This document shows positions 7,471-33,876 of a DNA stretch of 33,876 bases, one piece after another; position 1 is the first letter of the stretch, and each line of letters begins with the position of its first letter. Origin of the DNA: Candidatus Parcubacteria bacterium (GTDB lineage Bacteria > Patescibacteriota > Minisyncoccia > Phycocordibacterales > CALRHW01); assembly GCA_009691505.1 (NCBI GenBank), contig SICJ01000003.1:1-33876 (forward strand), given 5' to 3'. A program made the translations under genes and the position numbers. The notes under the pieces are model-generated. The model saw only the letters and a list, made by a program, of their open reading frames with translations. It ran no database searches and was not told the origin of the DNA.

Positions 7471-8427
7471 TTACTTTAGAGTAACGCCAATATCCTTTAA
7501 CATTTTTTTAATCTCTGTAACACCTTTTGTGCCAAGACCCTCTATTTCTGTAACGTCTTTTTCTTTCTTTCGCACAAGTCCGCCGACAGTTCGAATATTT
7601 GCAGAAGTCAAAGCGTTCATTGTGCGAGCTGAAAGGTTTAGAGATTCTATTCTAGTTTTCAAAAATTCTGGATCAAGGTCTTTTTTATCATCACCTTCAC
7701 CTTCGCTCTCTTTTTGTATTTCAGGCATTTCCTCTTCTTTAAAACCGATAATCGCCTTTAGCTGATTGATAGTTATTTCAATAGCTTTTGAAAGAGCATC
7801 GTGAGGAAGCATCGTGCCGTCTGTTTCTATAGAAATACGAAGACGATTGAAATCTGTTCTGTCACCGACGCGCATATTTTCAACTTCGTAACTCACTCTT
7901 TTGATAGGAGAAAAAACTGCATCAAGAGCAATACTACCGATGTCTACACGATTTTTTTGGATAACTTCTTTTGAAACATAGCCAAGACCTTTTTCTACCA
8001 GAAGCTCAATGTTGAGCTCAGCATTTTTGTCTGTAATAGTAGCAATAACAAAGTCAGGGTTGAGTACTGAAATCTGTCCAGTCGCTTTAATATCTTTTGC
8101 TGTGACTTCTTGCACGCCTTTTACTTTTAGAGTCAAAGTCTGTGGCTCGTCAGAGTGCATAGCGATGCGCACCTTTTTTAGATTGAGCAAAATTGTGATG
8201 ACGTCTTCTTTTATTCCATCAAGAACAGAAAACTCGTGACTTACGTCATTTATTTTTACAGAAGTAATGGCCGCACCAGGAAGAGATGACAAAATTATTC
8301 TACGTAGAGAGTTGCCGAGAGTGTGGCCGTATCCAGGATAAAGTCCGTCTATTTCATAAATCGCCGAAAAATTATCTTCGGATACAATCTTTGGCTTTGA
8401 AGGCAATACAATGCTGTGATGAACCAT
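7471..8427 (-). CDS. rpoA: RNA polymerase alpha subunit
   Basis: 318 aa; EIDGLYPGYGHTLGNSLRRIILSSLPGAAIT; C-terminal helix-hairpin domain LNLSARTMNALTSANIRTVGGL. Confidence 0.97.
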   Translation of the reverse strand: MVHHSIVLPSKPKIVSEDNFSAIYEIDGLYPGYGHTLGNSLRRIILSSLPGAAITSVKINDVSHEFSVLDGIKEDVITILLNLKKVRIAMHSDEPQTLTLKVKGVQEVTAKDIKATGQISVLNPDFVIATITDKNAELNIELLVEKGLGYVSKEVIQKNRVDIGSIALDAVFSPIKRVSYEVENMRVGDRTDFNRLRISIETDGTMLPHDALSKAIEITINQLKAIIGFKEEEMPEIQKESEGEGDDKKDLDPEFLKTRIESLNLSARTMNALTSANIRTVGGLVRKKEKDVTEIEGLGTKGVTEIKKMLKDIGVTLK

Positions 8428-14786: not shown

Positions 14787-15638
14787 TTACAAAAGACTTA
14801 TTTCTGTTATGACCTCATCTTTTTCTGTTTGACTCAAACCCATGTCGTCCAGAAGCTCTTTTTTTTCAAGTAAGGTTTTACAAAGCACTACGTTTTGAGA
14901 AATAAGTGTTTTTATGTGTGATTGGCTGAGCGTTTTTAAGCAAGTGATAGGATGAAGCTCCGAATCTTCTATCATGTTTTGCAAATTGCCTTTGAATGGA
15001 TAATTCCAGCCCACCATGTGAATACCGTTGCACATTCCATATTGAATAGCAGTGTTTGTAAATTTTGTATTTGTAATGAGCCAGCCTTCGTCTAATTTTC
15101 GCGGCGTGCCGTACTGCGTAAATTCTTTTCCTGAAAGATCTTCAAATCGCGCTTTTACATAAAGTGCTACTTTTAAATCACTCCGCGAGCCGGGCTCGTT
15201 GTGAAATTTTGCTTCACACATTATGAGTTTATTTTCATTGTATGCAACGACATCTACTTCATGCTCTACACAATTACCCATAATATGCTGATTAGTAAGT
15301 ACGCTATATCCCTTACTTTTAAAAATTTCGGCGATGAAATCTTCAAACGGAAACCCTGTCGGGCCAAGATCCATTATTGCTCGCTTTAGTGAATAGCGTA
15401 TCGCAGTTGGTCTTTCAAATTTTTTAAGTAAAGTAAAAGCGTGAGAATATATTTGCGTGGTACTCATTCCTTCGGCAACCTCGCCCTCTATGTGTTTTGT
15501 TATGAGTTCTCCTGTGTGAGCTGACGCGCCAGATTTTATAAGCGATTGTAAAAGTTTTTCTCTATTGAAATCTTCTTTTTTGCCGTCAGATTTTATTATT
15601 TTAATTTTAGGTATTTTGTCTTCCATTTTGTTTTCCAT
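14787..15638 (-). CDS. ATP-cone domain fused to Mrr-like PD-(D/E)xK endonuclease domain
   Basis: 283 aa; ATP-cone-like KIIKSDGKKEDFNREKLLQSLIKSG...; nuclease-like EHEVDVVAYNENKLIMCEAKFHN. Confidence 0.7.
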   Translation of the reverse strand: MENKMEDKIPKIKIIKSDGKKEDFNREKLLQSLIKSGASAHTGELITKHIEGEVAEGMSTTQIYSHAFTLLKKFERPTAIRYSLKRAIMDLGPTGFPFEDFIAEIFKSKGYSVLTNQHIMGNCVEHEVDVVAYNENKLIMCEAKFHNEPGSRSDLKVALYVKARFEDLSGKEFTQYGTPRKLDEGWLITNTKFTNTAIQYGMCNGIHMVGWNYPFKGNLQNMIEDSELHPITCLKTLSQSHIKTLISQNVVLCKTLLEKKELLDDMGLSQTEKDEVITEISLL

Positions 15639-17910: not shown

Positions 17911-17953
17911 TGCCTATTATTTTAGCACAATTTAAAAAAGAAGTGGATAACCA

Positions 17954-18070
17954 CGTAACAAATAAAAATAACCTTTAGAAAGACTCGCACAGGCGCGTCG
18001 GCGCCGAGCGGAGCAGAAATCTGAGCAGGGATTTACGCGTGCTTTCCAAAGGTTGTTTTTATTTGTTACG
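17954..18070. repeat. 29-bp inverted repeat (27/29) flanking a 59-nt GC-rich core
   Basis: Arm 17954-17982 cgtaacaaataaaaataacctttagaaag versus reverse complement of 18042-18070 cgtaacaaataaaaacaacctttggaaag. Confidence 0.9.
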
Positions 18071-22127: not shown

Positions 22128-22712
22128 CTACAGTGAATTCGGTGGCAAGAAAATGTCATACCCCATCTTTTCCACCACTGAAGCCTCCAGATCAGAGATA
22201 ATGTTGAAAATGGGGTCACCCTTCTTAAACTTTCTCTTTTCGGAAACTTTCAGGTAGAAAATTTTAACAACACCATCTACCACCCCTCCGCGCGCCTTGA
22301 TGCAGATAACAACAGACCTGATGTTCAAATGAGCACTTAGTACGTGCTCGTTAGGACTTTTTTCTTTCTTCACCACAGGCCCGCCAGTTTGGTCACTGTA
22401 AAAAATACGAGTGAACGGAAATTCTGCATCCACATGCCAGTAAACACGATATTCCACTGTTTCGTCCAATGACGACTCAAGTGGACCGTCTTCCTTACGG
22501 AACTCTAAAGATTCGGAAGCTGCTTCCAAATCAAGAGTCTCCCAAGGTTTAAAAGCGATGTGGTGAATGTTTCCAAGTGCCGAAGGACACAAAAAGTGCC
22601 CAATAACATTCGGCCACTGCTTGGCCGTATGGAGCGAACCCCACAAATCACGCAAAATCCTTGGCAACCAATGGTGTTGCTCAACAAGAGCCCAAAACTT
22701 TTCTGGCTTCAT
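22128..22712 (-). CDS. Hypothetical protein (start moved to MKPEKFW)
   Basis: Long ORF with SD-like AGAAAGG before 22712 and a dedicated terminator; no family recognised. Confidence 0.65.
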   Translation of the reverse strand: MKPEKFWALVEQHHWLPRILRDLWGSLHTAKQWPNVIGHFLCPSALGNIHHIAFKPWETLDLEAASESLEFRKEDGPLESSLDETVEYRVYWHVDAEFPFTRIFYSDQTGGPVVKKEKSPNEHVLSAHLNIRSVVICIKARGGVVDGVVKIFYLKVSEKRKFKKGDPIFNIISDLEASVVEKMGYDIFLPPNSL

Positions 22713-22849
22713 ATAGAAACCTTTCTGCCTTATAGGCAATTCAAAGGACAAGACTTGAGTCAGCACAATACTGACTTCTAAAAACATAATACATTAAAGT
22801 GAAATAATGTCAAGACACACAGGTAATGTGCACACGCGAGGGCAAATTT

Positions 22850-25312: not shown

Positions 25313-26293
25313 TCAACTTGCTAAGAATTTTGCAAGAGCTGTCGATATGGGTAATCCAGCCACCAATTCAGATGGCCCCCACTGTCCTTGGGGGTTTACT
25401 TCAAAGAAACAGTATTCTCCTGCTTCCGTGATGCAGAGATCTGCCACACCGAACCTCAATCCAAGACCTTGAACCACTTTTATCAGTTTTCTTTGAACGT
25501 CAACTGGTAGCTCGTATGGCTTGTAAATCCTTTCGAGCTTGTGGTTTCTCCAATCAAGGTTGTCGTCACCTGCTCCCAAATCCCTTTCGTGAGTAATTGA
25601 GACAGTAAAGACTTCATCGCCCACAATCGTTGATCTGAGATCGACTTTGTTGAGGATTGCTTCTTGGAAAATCACAGGGCAGACTTTCACTTGTTCAACC
25701 ACCTTAAGGATGGTTTCCTCATCAATGACCCGAGTATAGATTGTTCGGTTTCCTCCCTCTTTTTCGTTTGCACGATAGAGACAAGTTCCGACCGGCTTCA
25801 TAATCATACTCATGCCATGATTATTCCGAATGAATATTGACACACTAAGCGGATCATTCGAGATTACGGTCTTTGGAATCCTCAAACCACAATCCTGCGC
25901 GACCTTAAGCTGTAGGGGTTTGCTGTTTGCAATTCTGGTGCTGTCTGGGTCTGAGACCCACTTAACATCAGACGGCAAAAGGTAGAAAAGAGACCGCACA
26001 AACATGTCGGATTCCATCCGAATGTATTGACTGAGTGAGTCCTGTGCTTCTTTCTTGAATTTTCCCATAGGTCTGCGCCACCAAACTGATTTGACATTGT
26101 CTTGATTGAAAGCTCCCGTTCTTTGCTCAAAAAGAAACGAAAGTTCTGATGAGTAGCCAATGGTCCCGTAGCATTCCTTCGGAAACAGACTTAGATCGAG
26201 AAGAGAATATGTTTCCCCAATCTCATCAAGTCTTTTCATCAAAAGTTTGGACGTGCCATCCTCAGAATGAGATATAACTAGTATTTGTTTCAT
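25313..26293 (-). CDS. ATP-grasp peptide ligase, MvdC/MvdD-like (graspetide synthetase family)
   Basis: 326 aa; VWWRRP motif, SDPDSTRIANSKPLQLKVAQDCGLRIPKTVISNDP, FQEAILNKVDLRSTIVGDEVF, LRFGVADLCITEAGEYCFFEVNPQGQWG; SD AAGGAG 7 nt before ATG. Confidence 0.85.
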   Translation of the reverse strand: MKQILVISHSEDGTSKLLMKRLDEIGETYSLLDLSLFPKECYGTIGYSSELSFLFEQRTGAFNQDNVKSVWWRRPMGKFKKEAQDSLSQYIRMESDMFVRSLFYLLPSDVKWVSDPDSTRIANSKPLQLKVAQDCGLRIPKTVISNDPLSVSIFIRNNHGMSMIMKPVGTCLYRANEKEGGNRTIYTRVIDEETILKVVEQVKVCPVIFQEAILNKVDLRSTIVGDEVFTVSITHERDLGAGDDNLDWRNHKLERIYKPYELPVDVQRKLIKVVQGLGLRFGVADLCITEAGEYCFFEVNPQGQWGPSELVAGLPISTALAKFLAS

Positions 26294-26359: not shown

Positions 26360-26586
26360 ATGAGTTCAAATTAAATCTGTGCGGAAACTTTATATCGGTA
26401 TTATTAAAAGATTATTCAAATCAGGTATCTCCCCCCTTTTTTTTATGGATTTCCAAATAGCTTTTGAGGTGGTGGAAGTTTTATGACAAAACTAAATGGA
26501 ACAAGTTTGGCAAAATGTCGGTTTGTGAACCAACTATGCCGATGGATAGTGACATAATTTTAATTTAAATTCAGTGTTCCTTACTA

Positions 26587-27426
26587 TTACATAATGTACA
26601 TATCCTGTCCAAAATTGCCCGTGCCTACGTACTCCGCTTCGCCACGCAAAATTTTCTCAAACGGCTGGCAGGCAAAACATCCCTGCGCGCCTTGCGGACA
26701 CTCGAAAACTTTTTCTTCGCGGGCTTTTTTTATTTGTTTTGCGATGGCAAGGACTTTTTCGCGAGCGACCTCAATATCAGGCAAGGGCTTTACAACAGGC
26801 TCGTCATCTCTATCCAAATACCAATACAAAGCGCCAGTCACTTTACGATTTTGCAAAGCATCTAAAAGTAACAAATAAATCGGAAGTTGAAGCGAGTCTT
26901 GTGTTTCCTCGTGTTTGCCTGTTTTAAAATCAAAAATTTTTACGCTGTCGTCTGCCTCAATATATTCTAGCCAGTCTATGTATCCGCACAAAATAATATT
27001 TTCTTCTTCGGAAAGAAAAAAGTTTGGAGGCATTCCGTTGTGGCCTTCTTTTAGACGAACCGTCTTTTTGAAAATTGGGCCGGGATTTTTTATTACGTGT
27101 TTTATCATTGTAAGTCCACGTTCTTTTGCCGTAGCTTCTTCTTCGCTCGTTTTAAATCCACCAATTTTGCCAGATATTTTTTTCCACGCAATTTCAAAAT
27201 CTGCGACCAAGTCGTGCTTTAAGCGCTCCTCCAACGGAATATTTTTTAGCGGTTCAATAGTATTGTGCACCGCACTGCCGAGCGACATTGCCGAAGATAC
27301 CATGCCGATTTTTTTGCCAGATTTTGGATCTTTATAAACATTCCGCAAAAAATACGAACGCGGACATTTCAAAAAATCCCCGATGGACGAGTGCGAAACC
27401 CACACTGATTTGTATTTATCGGGCAT
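26587..27426 (-). CDS. PD-(D/E)xK nuclease family protein, RecB/Cas4-like, probable Fe-S cysteines
   Basis: SHSSIGDFLKCPRSYFLRNVYK; LCGYIDWLEYIEADDSVKIFDFKTGK; C-terminal ECPQGAQGCFACQPF. Confidence 0.8.
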   Translation of the reverse strand: MPDKYKSVWVSHSSIGDFLKCPRSYFLRNVYKDPKSGKKIGMVSSAMSLGSAVHNTIEPLKNIPLEERLKHDLVADFEIAWKKISGKIGGFKTSEEEATAKERGLTMIKHVIKNPGPIFKKTVRLKEGHNGMPPNFFLSEEENIILCGYIDWLEYIEADDSVKIFDFKTGKHEETQDSLQLPIYLLLLDALQNRKVTGALYWYLDRDDEPVVKPLPDIEVAREKVLAIAKQIKKAREEKVFECPQGAQGCFACQPFEKILRGEAEYVGTGNFGQDMYIM

Positions 27427-27440
27427 GTTTTTTAGTTAAA

Positions 27441-29111
27441 TTATCGTTCTGCGGTTTTTCCGTCTTGCACGCTTTGTGCGACTAAGTTTGTAAAAAATTT
27501 CCATATTATATACATTGCTTCAGTATCAAGTTTACAATATTCAAGCATTTCTTGCTTCTTTTTTTCCACCGCCGAGCCGACGATTTCGCCTTTCAAAATC
27601 TTCCGATAGGCCTCTATCGCGTCCGTGCCAGATTTTACGGCGAGCACATTATAATCCAAAACATTTTTTGGAAGTGCGAGCAAATCTTTTATCACAGGCA
27701 AAACTTTTTTTATAGACGAGCTTCCTTTAAATCCGTGATGCACATAATGCTGATTGTCTACAATGTCCATCAAATCATAAGTGCGATTGATAACACTATG
27801 TAAAAATTCAAAACGCAGAGGCACAAGCTCGGCGAGCTCGCGGTTACGCGAATTCTCAAATTTTTTATACCAAGAAATAACACTCCCTGTCTCTCCGATA
27901 TTCGTGCACAGACTTTCTACAAGTCGCTCCGCCGGATCTCCATCAAGAATCAAACTTTCAAAATGCTTCGGCGGAAGTCCTGCCTTAAAATCTTCGGCGT
28001 TTAAAACGTGAAGGGAATATTGAAAAACGATGTGTTGATAAGGGTGGTATCCGTCAAAAAAAGGAATAGCATGCGGATAAGTTTCATAGTCCAAAAAATA
28101 AAGCGGAAATTGAAGAGAGCTCAGCTCAGCTTTGATTGCATAGATATCCCTAATCGGTTTTTTAGATTTGTGGACAGCAACCTGATTTTGCTTTCTAGGT
28201 TTGCTCGGTTTTTGTCCCTCTTTCGCTTCTTTTATTTTTGGCAACTGATCTTCACGCACTTTTTCAATATGTAAAATTCCTTCGTCCAACAACTCTTTCA
28301 ACAATTTTTTACTATTCCCAATTCTGTTGATGTCGTGAACGCTGTATTCTGGCACATCTTTGTTGATGTACGAAAAAGCTGTGCAATGTGAGCTTCTTCC
28401 TCGGTAGTAGCAAGGACACGGGCGAGTTGGCATTTCTGCAGGCGACAAAAGATGGTGGGCTTCCTCCATTTCAATTAAAACTCTGGGCATCAAATCATCT
28501 ATCGCTACTGTCTTGTCTTCGGTTATAAAAAGTTGATTTTCTGAAAAATCTAAATCGCCCGCTTTTTTATATTTTTTATTTAAACGAATTAAATATTTTT
28601 TATTTATCTTCACACCACAGTTTTCAAAAACATTTGCTTGAAAAGCTAGGTCGTATTCAAATTGTAATTCTCTGCCAGATGATTTTTTTGGCGCAGGCTT
28701 TTCGTTTTTTCCTTCTTCATCATCAGCCACTTCACTTTCCTCGTCCGCAGTCGTAGAAGACATTTTTATTTCGCACATATCATAAGCGTCTGCACTAGCA
28801 TTCCATACCAAAATATCTGTCGCCGCCAAATATTTTTCTGTCGCAAAAACCGCTTGAAAAATAACTGACGCTTTTTGTTCCACAAGGGTTTTTGTAAGTT
28901 CTTGCGCACCGTCACTTCTTTTTTCTACAAGATAACCGTCTGGGAACATTCCGCGAGCTATTTCTTCCACTTCATTTCCCATTACGGTAAGCGATTTTTC
29001 AAAATCAGAAACTTCAAATTTTGAATACTGCGACGGCTCGTGTATTTTTACCCATACATTTTGTGGGCAGTTACGATACAATATAAAATCAGTTTTTGTG
29101 AGAGGTTTCAT
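27441..29111 (-). CDS. DUF2779-like protein: Cas4/RecB-like N-terminus plus RNase H-like exonuclease C-terminus
   Basis: LTKTDFILYRNCPQNVWVKIHEP; YDMCEIKMSS; FPLYFLDYETYPHAIPFFDGYHPYQHIVFQYSLHV. Confidence 0.75.
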   Translation of the reverse strand: MKPLTKTDFILYRNCPQNVWVKIHEPSQYSKFEVSDFEKSLTVMGNEVEEIARGMFPDGYLVEKRSDGAQELTKTLVEQKASVIFQAVFATEKYLAATDILVWNASADAYDMCEIKMSSTTADEESEVADDEEGKNEKPAPKKSSGRELQFEYDLAFQANVFENCGVKINKKYLIRLNKKYKKAGDLDFSENQLFITEDKTVAIDDLMPRVLIEMEEAHHLLSPAEMPTRPCPCYYRGRSSHCTAFSYINKDVPEYSVHDINRIGNSKKLLKELLDEGILHIEKVREDQLPKIKEAKEGQKPSKPRKQNQVAVHKSKKPIRDIYAIKAELSSLQFPLYFLDYETYPHAIPFFDGYHPYQHIVFQYSLHVLNAEDFKAGLPPKHFESLILDGDPAERLVESLCTNIGETGSVISWYKKFENSRNRELAELVPLRFEFLHSVINRTYDLMDIVDNQHYVHHGFKGSSSIKKVLPVIKDLLALPKNVLDYNVLAVKSGTDAIEAYRKILKGEIVGSAVEKKKQEMLEYCKLDTEAMYIIWKFFTNLVAQSVQDGKTAER

Positions 29112-29146
29112 ATCCTCTTATTTTGTTTTAATATTTAGAGAAAGTA

Positions 29147-29178
29147 AAGCACCGGATTGTTTGAAACAACCGATGCTT
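29147..29178 (-). terminator. Stem-loop terminator downstream of the 84-aa ORF
   Basis: aagcaccggattgtt-tga-aacaaccgatgctt, near-perfect stem. Confidence 0.6.
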
Positions 29179-29234
29179 CATACTTGGCGAGAAACATACG
29201 CCCATTTATAGAATCTTTTCATGTAGGGCACCCT

Positions 29235-29489
29235 TTATTGTCTCTCGAGCTTGAAATTTGCAAGCGCTTCGTCAGAAAGCTTGCGATTAATTTCATCACT
29301 AATTGCATAAGCAATGCGATGAACTTCAATCTTGGCTTTTATAACTGTGCGCTTTTCCAACAACTCCGGAGTCCAATCTTTTAGACCTCCGTAATTCTCA
29401 ATTGACCGCCTTGCTTCTTCACAAAGATTTACCAGCTCTAGATTCAGCTGGTACAATCTAGCAAGATGATCTTCACTAGATTTACTCAT
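29235..29489 (-). CDS. Small hypothetical helical protein (84 aa)
   Basis: ORF with strong SD AAAGGAGGTG before the ATG and a downstream hairpin. Confidence 0.6.
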   Translation of the reverse strand: MSKSSEDHLARLYQLNLELVNLCEEARRSIENYGGLKDWTPELLEKRTVIKAKIEVHRIAYAISDEINRKLSDEALANFKLERQ

Positions 29490-29586
29490 TTTTCACCTCC
29501 TTTCTGTGGTAAAAATGGTGCGATTTAAAACATGAACACCATGTCTTTTCTGCCCCTTATAATAACATCTTTAAAATGAAGGGCAA

Positions 29587-29811
29587 CTAGAAAGCTCTTT
29601 TGATTTCGTCTTGATATTTTCGCATTACTTCCATACTAGCTGACGTTTGACTCTTGCCATGTTTCATTAGTTGTTGCACTTCTGCGCCGATTTTTTGAAA
29701 TAAGTCTGGATTTTTTTCAATAATCTCAATCATTCTGTCTTGTTGAGCTTCAGGTACATCTTTCATTTTTGCCCGAAGCATCTTTTTCATGAAATAACTT
29801 TTTATAGACAT
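29587..29811 (-). CDS. Small hypothetical protein (74 aa)
   Basis: MSIKSYFMKKMLRAKMKDVPEAQQDRMIEIIEKNPDLFQKIGAEVQQLMKHG; co-directional, no overlap with a larger gene. Confidence 0.55.
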   Translation of the reverse strand: MSIKSYFMKKMLRAKMKDVPEAQQDRMIEIIEKNPDLFQKIGAEVQQLMKHGKSQTSASMEVMRKYQDEIKRAF

Positions 29812-29820
29812 GGTAATATT

Positions 29821-30642
29821 TTACTCTTTACTTTTTATAAATTCAAGTGCACCCCACACACCGCCAAGTGCTCCGAGCTCTGCTTTTTTAATAATCGGCA
29901 CTTTTGGAAAAATTTTCAAAATGTTTTTCAGATGAAACTCTACTCTGTCCACGGGTATCGCTGGATTTCCTACTATCATTGAACCCCCAAGCACAAGAAC
30001 GTCTGGCGACCAAAGTACTATTGTGTTGTGTAAACCATAAGCGAGTTTGAGCGAGAGTTCTTCCCACACTTTTGGATCGGTAATTTCTTTTGCTTTTTTA
30101 CCAAAACGTTTTTCAAGTGCAGTTCCAGAAACTGTTTGTTCTAAAGTAACATTTTCTCCACTTTCAAAAGAGAAAATTTCTTGTCCTGGTTCAAAACCCA
30201 CAGACTTTTCATCTAGCGCACCATCTACCACCCTCGCACCGCCTACGCCGGTGCTCACCGTAATATATTCCATAATAGAAAAACCTTTTCCTGCCCCGTA
30301 GTGCGCCTCACCGAGCGCCACAAGCGCAGCGTCATTTTCAAGAAAAACGGGGACGCCAAGCATTTTTTCTAAACGATCTTGAATTGGCTTGTGACACCAG
30401 TGTATTAAGTTTGGCGAAGATATTACCCGAGTTTGCTTTTCATCAAAAACCCCAGGCACGCCTCCGCCAGCACATTTTATATTTCCGACTGCGCCTAGAC
30501 GAGTCGCCACGGCAAAAATCGCATTTATCCCTTCCTCAAAATGTTGCGGTGTTGCAAAAACCACAGGCTCACTGATATTTTTTCCATCTTTACAAAAAGC
30601 GACTCGCGTATTTGTTCCTCCAATATCAAACAGTAAGTACAT
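29821..30642 (-). CDS. ROK family sugar kinase
   Basis: MYLLFDIGGTNTRVAFCKDG; VFLENDAALVALGEAHYGAG; VSTGVGGARVVDG. Confidence 0.85.
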   Translation of the reverse strand: MYLLFDIGGTNTRVAFCKDGKNISEPVVFATPQHFEEGINAIFAVATRLGAVGNIKCAGGGVPGVFDEKQTRVISSPNLIHWCHKPIQDRLEKMLGVPVFLENDAALVALGEAHYGAGKGFSIMEYITVSTGVGGARVVDGALDEKSVGFEPGQEIFSFESGENVTLEQTVSGTALEKRFGKKAKEITDPKVWEELSLKLAYGLHNTIVLWSPDVLVLGGSMIVGNPAIPVDRVEFHLKNILKIFPKVPIIKKAELGALGGVWGALEFIKSKE

Positions 30643-30660
30643 TTTATGAAATTATTTTTA

Positions 30661-31623
30661 TTAAATGAGTTTTTTAAACTCTTCTATCATCGGCACTTTT
30701 TCTGCTTCTGTACCATACATTTGAGAAACATAAAATGCTGTCCAATCAGCCAAAAGCAAGTTGTTGAAAACATTTTCCCAAAAAGACACGCCTTTTATTT
30801 CTATTACAGTAACAGGAAATCCTCGCACCGAAAGCATTTCTTTTGTAATTTCCATCCGTTTTGTGATTTTTGGGTTGCTGGTTTCGTCTTTTAGGAAAAT
30901 AAAATGAAAATTGTTGCTTAGATTTTTTGTAGTTGGTATCACATCAAAACCAGTCATTTCGTTGTGATTTAGCTCTGGAAAAATATTATAAAAAGCAGGA
31001 ATCTTTCCTGTCTCATTAAATTTTATTTTCCAATTATATGCGAGCGTGACATTTGAACGTGAAGAATAAATGATAGGTGTCTTATCACGCAATTTTTCTG
31101 CTAAAGATTTTCCCGCTTCTTCTGTTTTAGAAGGATTAATATTAAAACCAAGCGCGTGCAAATCTGTGAGGAGTTTTTCATTATTTGTAATTTTTGCAAG
31201 CGCGACGAGAGAAAAACCCAAAGCGCTTCTCGGTTGTATTCCTACTTCTGGTAATTGTACGTAAGGGAGATTATTTTCTATGGCAAAATCTATAAGTGAA
31301 CCACCGAGTGCGATAACCGCAACTGCATATTTTTGTTCCAGTGCTTTTTGCGCAAAATCAATAACTTCTTCTGTGTTACCAGAATATGAACTTGCGATAA
31401 AAAGGCTTTTAGAAAACTTTTTATGAGAAAGAGCAGGTAAGCCATAATCACGATGAATGTATAGGTCTAAATCTGGATTATACATTTTAAGGAGCTCGGC
31501 TGCTAGATGCGATCCACCCATTCCACCAAAAACAAAACCTTCTCCAGATTTTAAATACTCAGAGTTTTTTATTTCTGGATTAAAATTAAACTGTGTGGCA
31601 AATGTTCTTATCGCTTCTTCCAT
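30661..31623 (-). CDS. Bifunctional phosphoglucose/phosphomannose isomerase-like SIS protein
   Basis: GGMGGSHLAAELL, FIASSYSGNTEEVIDFAQKAL, LNHNEMTGF; start MEEAIRTF preferred. Confidence 0.8.
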   Translation of the reverse strand: MEEAIRTFATQFNFNPEIKNSEYLKSGEGFVFGGMGGSHLAAELLKMYNPDLDLYIHRDYGLPALSHKKFSKSLFIASSYSGNTEEVIDFAQKALEQKYAVAVIALGGSLIDFAIENNLPYVQLPEVGIQPRSALGFSLVALAKITNNEKLLTDLHALGFNINPSKTEEAGKSLAEKLRDKTPIIYSSRSNVTLAYNWKIKFNETGKIPAFYNIFPELNHNEMTGFDVIPTTKNLSNNFHFIFLKDETSNPKITKRMEITKEMLSVRGFPVTVIEIKGVSFWENVFNNLLLADWTAFYVSQMYGTEAEKVPMIEEFKKLI

Positions 31624-31642
31624 GGTTTTATTATAACAAATT

Positions 31643-32881
31643 TTAATGTTTGATTTTGTCGGCTTCTTCAATACGCTCGGACGCCAAAATATATGCTGCG
31701 TTTCGTAGCGTAGTTTTATATTTTTCTTTTATAACTACAATGTTATTCCATGCTGATACCATTAGATCGTCCAATTTTTTTAATACATCTTCTCTTTGCC
31801 ATTTTTCTGAGTTCATATTTTGATACCATTCAAAATAACTAGTCGCGACTCCGCCACTATTTGCAAGGATATCTGGAATAACGATGACTCCATTTTTTGC
31901 AAAAATTTCATCGGACTCAGGAGTCGTCGGACCGTTTGCCATTTCTACGATAATTTTTGCAGATATTTGTTCCGCATTTTCTGATGTCAGTACATTTTCA
32001 AGTGCGGACGGCACCAAAATATCCACCGAGAGTAAAAGCAACTCCGCATTTGTGATATTTTTTGTACCAGCCAAACCAGACAGAGTCCCGGTATTTTTTT
32101 TGTGAGCGAGCGCAAGAGCTAGGTCAATTCCATTTTCATTATAAACTCCACCTTTGCTATCAGAAAGAGCTACGACTTTTAAACCTTGCTTTATCACACT
32201 CTCTGCAAAATATGTAGCGACATTTCCGAAACCTTGAATAGCGACTGTCGCACCGACAGATATCAATCCTGTGTTTATTATTTCTCTCACCACCACTCCT
32301 CCGCCAAAACCCGTAGCTTCCATTCTACCTTCACTTCCGCCATTTGCAATGGCTTTTCCTGTAAATGTTGCAGGCGCCTTTTTGCCTGTGATTTTTTCAT
32401 ACTCATCTAGCATATAGCCCATTATTTTTTCGCCAGTGTTTACGTCTGGTGCAGGCACATCCATTTCAGGTCCAAGCACAGGATACATTTTTTTTATATA
32501 CCCGCGTGAAATATTTTCAATTTCTTTTTCAGACAAAATTTTAGGGTCCACAATCACGCCTCCTTTTCCTCCTCCGAAAGGCACGTTTACTACCGCACAT
32601 TTGAAAGTCATCCAAAAACTAAGTGCGCGCACTTCATCTAAATTTACGTCGTGATGAAAACGTATTCCTCCTTTATATGGTCCGCATGAATTATTGTGTT
32701 GACTTCTAAAACCTTGAAAAATATGTTGACTTCCGTTATCCATCGTTACAGGAATACTCACTTCTATGTATCTATCGGGAGTTTTCATTCTATCTAAAAA
32801 ATTTTGATCAAGCTCCGCTATCTTTCCTGCTTTTTCCAATTGGTCTATCGCATTTTTAAATGGGTTTGTTTGATTTTTCAT
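31643..32881 (-). CDS. gdhA: Glu/Leu/Phe/Val dehydrogenase (glutamate dehydrogenase)
   Basis: 412 aa; GPYKGGIRFHHDVNLDEVRALSFWMTFKCAVVNVPFGGGKGGV; VAIQGFGNVATYFAE. Confidence 0.92.
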   Translation of the reverse strand: MKNQTNPFKNAIDQLEKAGKIAELDQNFLDRMKTPDRYIEVSIPVTMDNGSQHIFQGFRSQHNNSCGPYKGGIRFHHDVNLDEVRALSFWMTFKCAVVNVPFGGGKGGVIVDPKILSEKEIENISRGYIKKMYPVLGPEMDVPAPDVNTGEKIMGYMLDEYEKITGKKAPATFTGKAIANGGSEGRMEATGFGGGVVVREIINTGLISVGATVAIQGFGNVATYFAESVIKQGLKVVALSDSKGGVYNENGIDLALALAHKKNTGTLSGLAGTKNITNAELLLLSVDILVPSALENVLTSENAEQISAKIIVEMANGPTTPESDEIFAKNGVIVIPDILANSGGVATSYFEWYQNMNSEKWQREDVLKKLDDLMVSAWNNIVVIKEKYKTTLRNAAYILASERIEEADKIKH

Positions 32882-32898
32882 TTGATAATTATATGTTA

Positions 32899-32928
32899 AA
32901 GGCGGGGGTCTTGGAAGACCCCCGCCTT
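32899..32928 (-). terminator. Perfect 14-bp hairpin, intrinsic terminator/attenuator 18 nt upstream of gdhA
   Basis: aaggcgggggtctt-gg-aagacccccgcctt. Confidence 0.75.
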
Positions 32929-32960
32929 AATTCTTGTGTCCGAGTTAAACTCGGAAACTG

Positions 32961-33089
32961 CTAAAAATTCTCCTCATTTTGCCAATTTTGCCAATTTTGC
33001 CAATTTTTGTTGCGTTGGTTGAGAGCCTTTCGTTGCCCCCATCCCCAGTGAGAATTGCGTTTGTACCCTGGTTTTTTTACTCTTACCAT
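32961..33089 (-). CDS. Unannotated 42-aa Trp/Gln/Asn-rich small ORF
   Basis: MVRVKKPGYKRNSHWGWGQRKALNQRNKNWQNWQNWQNEENF*; GGAGG 10 nt upstream; promoter-like TATAAT and downstream terminator. Confidence 0.55.
   Translation of the reverse strand: MVRVKKPGYKRNSHWGWGQRKALNQRNKNWQNWQNWQNEENF
32974..33007. repeat. 9-nt tandem repeat (ttttgccaa) inside the small ORF
   Basis: cattttgccaattttgccaattttgccaattttt; encodes NWQ repeats. Confidence 0.85.
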
Positions 33090-33180
33090 TTTGGAATATC
33101 CTCCAACAATTGTGCGAGGAACGCCTAGAATAGGTACACCCTATTCAGAAAACAGCTCCATTCATAATCCTACACCTAAC

Positions 33181-33210
33181 ATTATAAAAATCAACACGTT
33201 ATCAACGCAA
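33181..33210 (-). promoter_or_regulatory. Promoter-like element upstream of the small ORF
   Basis: Minus strand TTGCGT-N18-TATAAT. Confidence 0.4.
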
Positions 33211-33238
33211 CTGTGGATTACTTGAAGCGCATCATTTG

Positions 33239-33876
33239 TTATCTTTTTTCAAGTTTTATGTCCGCGGGAGCTTGTCTTTTTGGAGTTATTTTTTGATTTG
33301 TGATTGGCGTTGTGGTAGAAATTATTTTTTCAGCTTCAACTGCAGTAGATAATCCATTTTTGTAAAACATAAATGCTGTTCCATATTCTTCTATTATAAA
33401 CTGCGTATCTCCAGAATCAACAAATTTTGTCGCTTTATCAATAGTGTCTGAAGCGATAGCAATAGAAGTCGCGGAAACTTCTACATTTTTATCAATGCTC
33501 TGTTTTACTTTGTCAATTTTTGTAGTCGCATCTTTTCTTTTATCCTGTGCTGTTGCTTTTTTTATTTCATCATCGTCAAGTGTAGGAATTTTTGCTTCTA
33601 CTTCTTCACGAGCTTGCGTTGTCGTGGTTATGCTTGCTTCAACAGAATCGAGGAGATTACTCAGCTCTGTTTGACTGTCCGCCATCTTTTCGTTTGCTAT
33701 TTTTTCATCTGTAGCTGAAATTGTTTCTTCTGCCGTCACGGTTTCGCTCGTAGTGACATCTATTTTTGTGAGATCGTCTGATACAGAAATAACCGCCACA
33801 CCTTTTTCCTCTATATCACTTTCAATAGATGTAACTGTGGGTGCAACTGTGGGTGCAACTGTGGGTGCAACTGTGG
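33239..33876 (-). CDS. Partial CDS, low-complexity Thr/Ala-rich protein, open to window edge
   Basis: ORF-track start at 33799 is a GTG; frame stays open upstream as ...VAPTVAPTVAPTVTSIESDIEEKGVAVISVSDD... Confidence 0.6.
   Translation of the reverse strand, partial: TVAPTVAPTVAPTVTSIESDIEEKGVAVISVSDDLTKIDVTTSETVTAEETISATDEKIANEKMADSQTELSNLLDSVEASITTTTQAREEVEAKIPTLDDDEIKKATAQDKRKDATTKIDKVKQSIDKNVEVSATSIAIASDTIDKATKFVDSGDTQFIIEEYGTAFMFYKNGLSTAVEAEKIISTTTPITNQKITPKRQAPADIKLEKR
33833..33876. repeat. 12-nt tandem repeat aactgtgggtgc, about 3.7 copies, runs off the window end
   Basis: Direct reading; encodes (VAPT)n on the minus strand. Confidence 0.9.

Follow-up and report, generated by a model that had tools for sequence, protein, structure and literature searches.

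A 42-aa open reading frame (ORF) on the minus strand of a Parcubacteria contig (33089-32961) was found in a short segment that is replaced in the sister species by unrelated DNA, itself carrying a different small ORF on the same strand. Conservation of the surrounding shell, replacement of the segment between its two sides, and the filling of both slots by an open frame were all observed. To explain them, we tentatively favour, with slightly less than even confidence, a small unit of transcription whose coding cassette can be exchanged. The slot would be lineage-specific and transcribed, and the ORF, at best a gene restricted to one species, may or may not be translated. The interest of this orphan ORF comes mainly from the occurrence of unrelated ORFs in one slot of two close species.

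Genomic context and properties of the 42-aa ORF

The window, i.e. the whole stretch of 33,876 nucleotides analysed, is contig G000:C14 of a 466-kb, 24-contig Parcubacteria assembly, and its minus strand carries every gene. The ORF is placed between the 3' end of a gene truncated at the contig end (33239-33876), which encodes the C-terminal part of a DUF5667-type protein (full-length orthologue in L006), and the downstream glutamate dehydrogenase gene, gdhA (31643-32881), 91% identical to that of Parcubacteria group bacterium TrH-25oct19-271. In the sister genome, the DUF5667-type gene adjoins an ECF-type sigma factor gene. DnaA-like boxes near 33199-33230 were suggestive of an oriC there, a candidate for which neither gene content nor skew of the sister contig gave support.

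The earlier note had described an ORF with five Trp residues and a C-terminal (NWQ)3 built from 9-nt repeats, and both features are present. The ORF reads MVRVKKPGYKRNSHWGWGQRKALNQRNKNWQNWQNWQNEENF, followed by a stop, with a computed pI of 11.1, a GRAVY of -2.0 and a charge near +6.7. There is no hydrophobic stretch in the sequence, and the peptide is probably disordered, highly basic and rich in Trp, Asn and Gln. Repeat detection placed a minisatellite at 32976-33007 (minus strand), consisting of 3.6 copies of the 9-nt unit ATTTTGCCA at 100% identity and encoding (NWQ)3 in frame. At the contig end, some 830 bp from the first, there is a second minisatellite, a perfect 12-nt repeat encoding (TVAP)n inside the DUF5667-type gene (33833-33876); it is absent from the sister, and the contig may have been broken there. 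With two such minisatellites in one neighbourhood, local slippage accounts for (NWQ)3 without selection.

As the earlier note had also stated, no family could be recognised: Pfam, NCBIfam, PHROGs and PDB gave no match. No credible relative was found among 60 related genomes, nor among 397 genomes of the order, where the best non-self match (E 0.007) contained three stops, and nothing related was present in INPHARED phages or IMG/VR viral contigs. The weak matches obtained were stop-containing or low-complexity alignments of 26-30 residues.

Replacement of the segment in the sister genome

Apart from the genome of the window, the search of 60 relatives yielded a single member of the genus, and of the family: the sister, TrH-25oct19-271 (G001). 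The within-genus comparison thus covers two genomes. BLASTN matched window positions 26504-32925 to G001:C1 1280-7704 with 90.6% identity, and 33112-33840 to G001:C1 7941-8693 with 81.4% identity; in a full alignment, the collinear block (26504-33840) had a mean identity of 0.88. Between the two matches, the 186-bp segment that holds the 42-aa ORF (32926-33111, minus strand) is swapped for an unrelated 236 bp (G001:C1:7705-7940). The three 60-nt bins over this segment had identities of 0.29-0.37, versus 0.5-0.78 for the other low bins of the block. The two segments showed no similarity beyond chance, either as DNA (local score of 15, shuffle mean of 16.9) or as encoded peptides (local score of 20, shuffle mean of 21.0). 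The sister segment contains a different basic ORF of 65-70 aa at the same position and on the same strand (MEIKRMSGTRQNSRERNGDQDDTRRDWRPQHYSNKHRTIIDGAIMIEPRVLTSRPRHSSFMEFLRRRRII), which is Arg-rich, with a pI above 11 and a charge near +6.7, and for which the 60 relatives gave no convincing match.

By the earlier note's own test, its claim would fall if sister genomes did not keep the frame. The segment proved to be replaced by unrelated DNA, not merely diverged, so that the 42-aa gene, if it is a gene, is species-specific. The other large differences between the window and the sister consist of one repeat element and one gene replacement, which indicates that cassette turnover occurs here. 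A 219-aa ORF without a Pfam or NCBIfam match (22128-22787, minus strand) lies within a 0.8-kb segment swapped for about 1.9 kb in the sister.

A conserved shell with a promoter-like box and two hairpins

The stretch from 33190 to 33112 is common to both genomes and includes a -10-like box and a 5' hairpin. The promoter-like element of the earlier note stood in part: a perfect TATAAT is present on the ORF strand at 33186-33181 (TATTAT, shifted by 2, in the sister), but with a poor -35, and a promoter scan missed the site. The 5' leader hairpin (33118-33159, minus strand; GGAGC.GTTT...GAATAGG/CCTATTC.AGGCGTTCC) carries one compensatory change, a G-C pair in the window corresponding to A-T in the sister (GAATAGG/CCTATTC versus GAATAAG/CTTATTC). 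Downstream, a strong, terminator-like 13-bp hairpin (32899-32928, minus strand), present in one copy per genome, reads GGCGGGGGTCTT/AAGACCCCCGCC in the window and AGCGGG(A)GGTCT/AGACCCCCGCT in the sister, with pairing kept through a compensatory change of the basal pair. This hairpin had been taken for the terminator of the ORF; a terminator scan accepts it on the plus strand only, the ORF strand offering just TTT and no U-tract. Folding also predicted a small hairpin 3' of the ORF within the replaced segment (TCCGAG TTTAA CTCGGA; 32939-32955, minus strand) and a stem immediately upstream of the ATG.

The 89% identity of the leader was rejected as a special feature, since identity is near 88-90% throughout the collinear block and only the replaced segment stands out. 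The compensatory changes are a better argument, yet there are just two of them. A leader model (R1) searched against the 397 order genomes matched only the two of this genus, and the leader DNA pattern had no match in genome or viral contigs. Rfam, searched at strict and lax settings, returned no credible family for the locus; its L20_leader match (E 0.0034) was rejected, as it lies on the other strand and covers the hairpin alone. The claim of a separate small transcription unit is supported by the -10 box and the 5' and 3' hairpins, all kept in a sister whose segment is nearly filled by one same-strand small ORF, but not by its Shine-Dalgarno (SD) argument, as the lineage has no anti-SD.

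Amino-acid attenuation leader peptides have a similar anatomy: a short ORF containing a run of biased codons, plus a hairpin, upstream of an amino-acid gene. With its many N and Q codons, its position directly 5' of glutamate dehydrogenase and the strong hairpin that follows it, the 42-aa ORF could accordingly be read as a leader peptide attenuating gdhA on the supply of Asn, Gln or Trp-tRNA, with the 13-bp hairpin as attenuator. However, the regulatory codon run is not kept in the sister, whose peptide is Arg-rich and not N/Q-rich; no alternative antiterminator pairing was seen; and gdhA is leaderless-looking, with a separate TATAAT 12 nt upstream of its ATG, which argues against a read-through transcript. 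Moreover, among the nearest gdhA relatives from other genera, the upstream regions that were inspected contained no comparable unit. We regard attenuation as highly improbable.

Loss of the anti-Shine-Dalgarno sequence

The SD that had been assigned to the ORF is an overreading. A GGAGG is indeed present (33100-33104, minus strand), but this genome's 16S rRNA terminates in ...CTCGTGGAGTATTTCAAATG, without CCTCC. In this genome, the sister and the single-contig genome G003 (loci L141, G000:C15:16826-18335; L140; and L142, respectively), the 16S rRNA 3' end reads ...GTGGA(GT/AC)ATTTCAAAT, replacing TGGATCACCTCC. CCTCC was missing from 129 of the 131 listed 16S tails of the order, a count that speaks for the 128 of 397 order genomes matched by the tail pattern. 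The two exceptions (G128:C6 and G295:C26) both have a different helix 45 and probably represent contamination or foreign copies. Outside the class, almost every genome in a phylum-wide draw retains CCTCC or something close to it. Single Campbellbacteria and Wolfebacteria genomes are known to combine a lost anti-SD core with few SDs (PMC10783764), and anti-SD loss has also been reported for scattered other groups (PMC6107228); its loss in this order is an extension of these facts, apparently worth a study and more interesting than the 42-aa ORF.

Among the 217 ORFs of 150 aa or more, 6 were preceded by an SD-like 4-mer and 81 by a -10 box (TANNWT at -18 to -5), so that many genes look leaderless. 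Since the anti-SD is missing from the 16S rRNA, SD motifs cannot be used as an argument for genes in this order, and the GGAGG can neither serve as a ribosome-binding site of the classical kind nor count as evidence for translation. In the alignment, both species have TGGAG at an equal offset from the last conserved block, which suggests that TGGAG may belong to the leader.

The rarity of SD-like motifs (the same 6 of 217 large ORFs) has a bearing on a second alternative, according to which the slot is an integration hot spot between two operons and the ORF a functionless remnant of an acquired, SD-using gene. One such motif precedes a graspetide-type ligase in a stretch non-collinear with the sister, and the atypical codon usage of the ORF would fit an acquired fragment. 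On the other hand, searches of phages, viral contigs and genomes of the order yielded no donor, the shell hairpins are intact, and TGGAG at an equal offset in both species suggests an inherited leader rather than imported SDs. This turnover scar is an unlikely explanation; both it and gdhA attenuation are less likely than the other readings.

The ligase in question is an MvdC/MvdD-like ATP-grasp ribosomal-peptide maturase (25313-26293, minus strand; TIGR04187, E 2e-58; TIGR04185; TIGR04184; all below curated cut-offs), with a clear AAGGAG upstream, and was probably acquired. No obvious precursor peptide adjoins it. The 42-aa ORF shares with graspetide (MvdD-type) precursors its short length and the presence of this ligase on the contig; however, the ligase is 6.7 kb away, and the 42-mer has no core motif, no Thr at all and one Ser. 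An 84-aa ORF (29235-29489, minus strand), with AAAGGAGGTGAAAA upstream, likewise has an SD-like leader, a great rarity in a genome devoid of SDs.

Coding potential and interpretation of the slot

An ORF of 42 aa or more arose in the window slot in 5.5% of dinucleotide shuffles (P 0.055), and was found in 3.5% of same-length antisense windows; ORF length alone is thus weak evidence. For the 65-70-aa ORF of the sister slot, the chance P from shuffles was 0.003-0.007, and chance filling of both slots by open frames is unlikely. Codon log-odds were -0.061 for the 42-mer and -0.231 for the sister ORF, both below the 5th percentile of genes (cutoff of -0.014), whereas the synonymous-only codon score of the 42-mer (0.075) was within the 5-95% range of genes (-0.05 to 0.23). 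GC upstream of the ORF was 0.35, which is high for this genome (median of 0.20). It is fair to call the ORF small, unannotated and unrecognised, but not to speak of an established or conserved small protein.

A small non-coding RNA of about 290 nt, or an untranslated region, with functional 5' and 3' hairpins, a middle free to vary and the 42-aa ORF as a chance frame, ranks closely behind the exchangeable cassette, and we consider it a serious possibility, at roughly one chance in three. Preservation of both hairpins through compensatory changes, codon usage unlike that of genes, the 5.5% chance of an ORF in the window slot and the lack of a usable SD would all be expected of it, as would a long structured leader, unlike the many leaderless-looking genes here. 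It accounts less well for the same-strand ORF in the sister slot as well (P 0.003-0.007), for the lack of an Rfam family match, and for a leader that, among the 397 order genomes, is confined to the two of this genus.

In the cassette reading, a small unit transcribed independently would separate glutamate dehydrogenase from the DUF5667-type gene. It would consist of a -10 box, a leader with structure at the 5' end, a short coding cassette of variable content and a strong hairpin at the 3' end, the last of which would set the unit apart from the leaderless-looking gdhA. The shell would be inherited and the cassette species-specific: in the window, the 42-aa peptide, its C-terminus grown by slippage of the 9-nt unit; in the sister, an unrelated and equally basic peptide of 65-70 aa. 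Cassettes would be replaced through recombination in the conserved flanks, and the unit would be transcribed and then translated without SD pairing into a cationic peptide, possibly with a nucleic-acid- or membrane-binding role. This reading is supported by flanks about 88% identical with non-homology only across 33111-32926, by a same-strand ORF over most of the slot in both species (chance of 0.055 and 0.007), by the basic character of both peptides (pI above 11, charge near +6.7), by leader and 3' hairpins that each keep their pairing via compensatory change, and by the gene-like synonymous codon choice of the 42-mer. The overall codon log-odds of both ORFs argue against it, as do the failure to find a homologue, the missing anti-SD, the stem just upstream of the ATG and the high upstream GC.

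If translated, the ORF would add to the orphan small proteins of a lineage whose short ORFs most gene finders skip. More speculatively, and with little confidence, the slot may be hypervariable in this CPR genus, with unrelated genes for small basic proteins swapped between close species inside a conserved promoter-leader-hairpin shell, pointing to diversifying selection (e.g. host cell or phage interaction) and to leader-based translation start without an anti-SD. The swap at one fixed slot would offer a way to learn what diversifies fastest in CPR bacteria.

Among known systems, taxonomically restricted orphan small ORFs are likewise short, without homologues, atypical in codon usage and confined to single species; here, however, the flanking expression shell is conserved and an unrelated ORF fills the slot of the sister. 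A hypervariable gene of Gracilibacteria (BD1-5) contains 9-mer repeats coding for PTD, kept by synonymous change, and is flanked by strong stem-loops, its product having a predicted N-terminal TM helix and extracellular location (PMC6851277). Both cases involve a CPR bacterium, 9-nt repeats coding for a tripeptide and flanking stem-loops, but the present ORF has 42 aa, no hydrophobic segment and 3 repeat copies, and is missing from the sister; the likeness is one of anatomy only.

Other elements of the window

A dispersed structured element (window 17954-18070), which we rate as more interesting than the 42-aa ORF, has a near-invariant core (GACTCGCRCAGGCGCGNCGGCGCCGAGCGGAGCAG), a covarying inner hairpin and ACGCGTGC. 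It had no Rfam match and occurs in 8 copies in 295 kb of G000 and about 10 in G001 (further loci: L119:15194, L127-L134, L147, L150, L151, L153, L155 and L164). The element sits on stems of 20-40 bp, whose sequence differs at most loci while complementarity is kept. At the corresponding intergenic site of the sister (G001:C5, about 7500-7616; window 17943-18066), a different long hairpin is present, the loop of which resembles a diverged, reversed form of the element. Finally, an ATP-cone and Mrr_cat restriction-endonuclease-like protein is encoded at 14787-15638 (minus strand), between alaS and mltG-like genes, these neighbours being named from sequence only.
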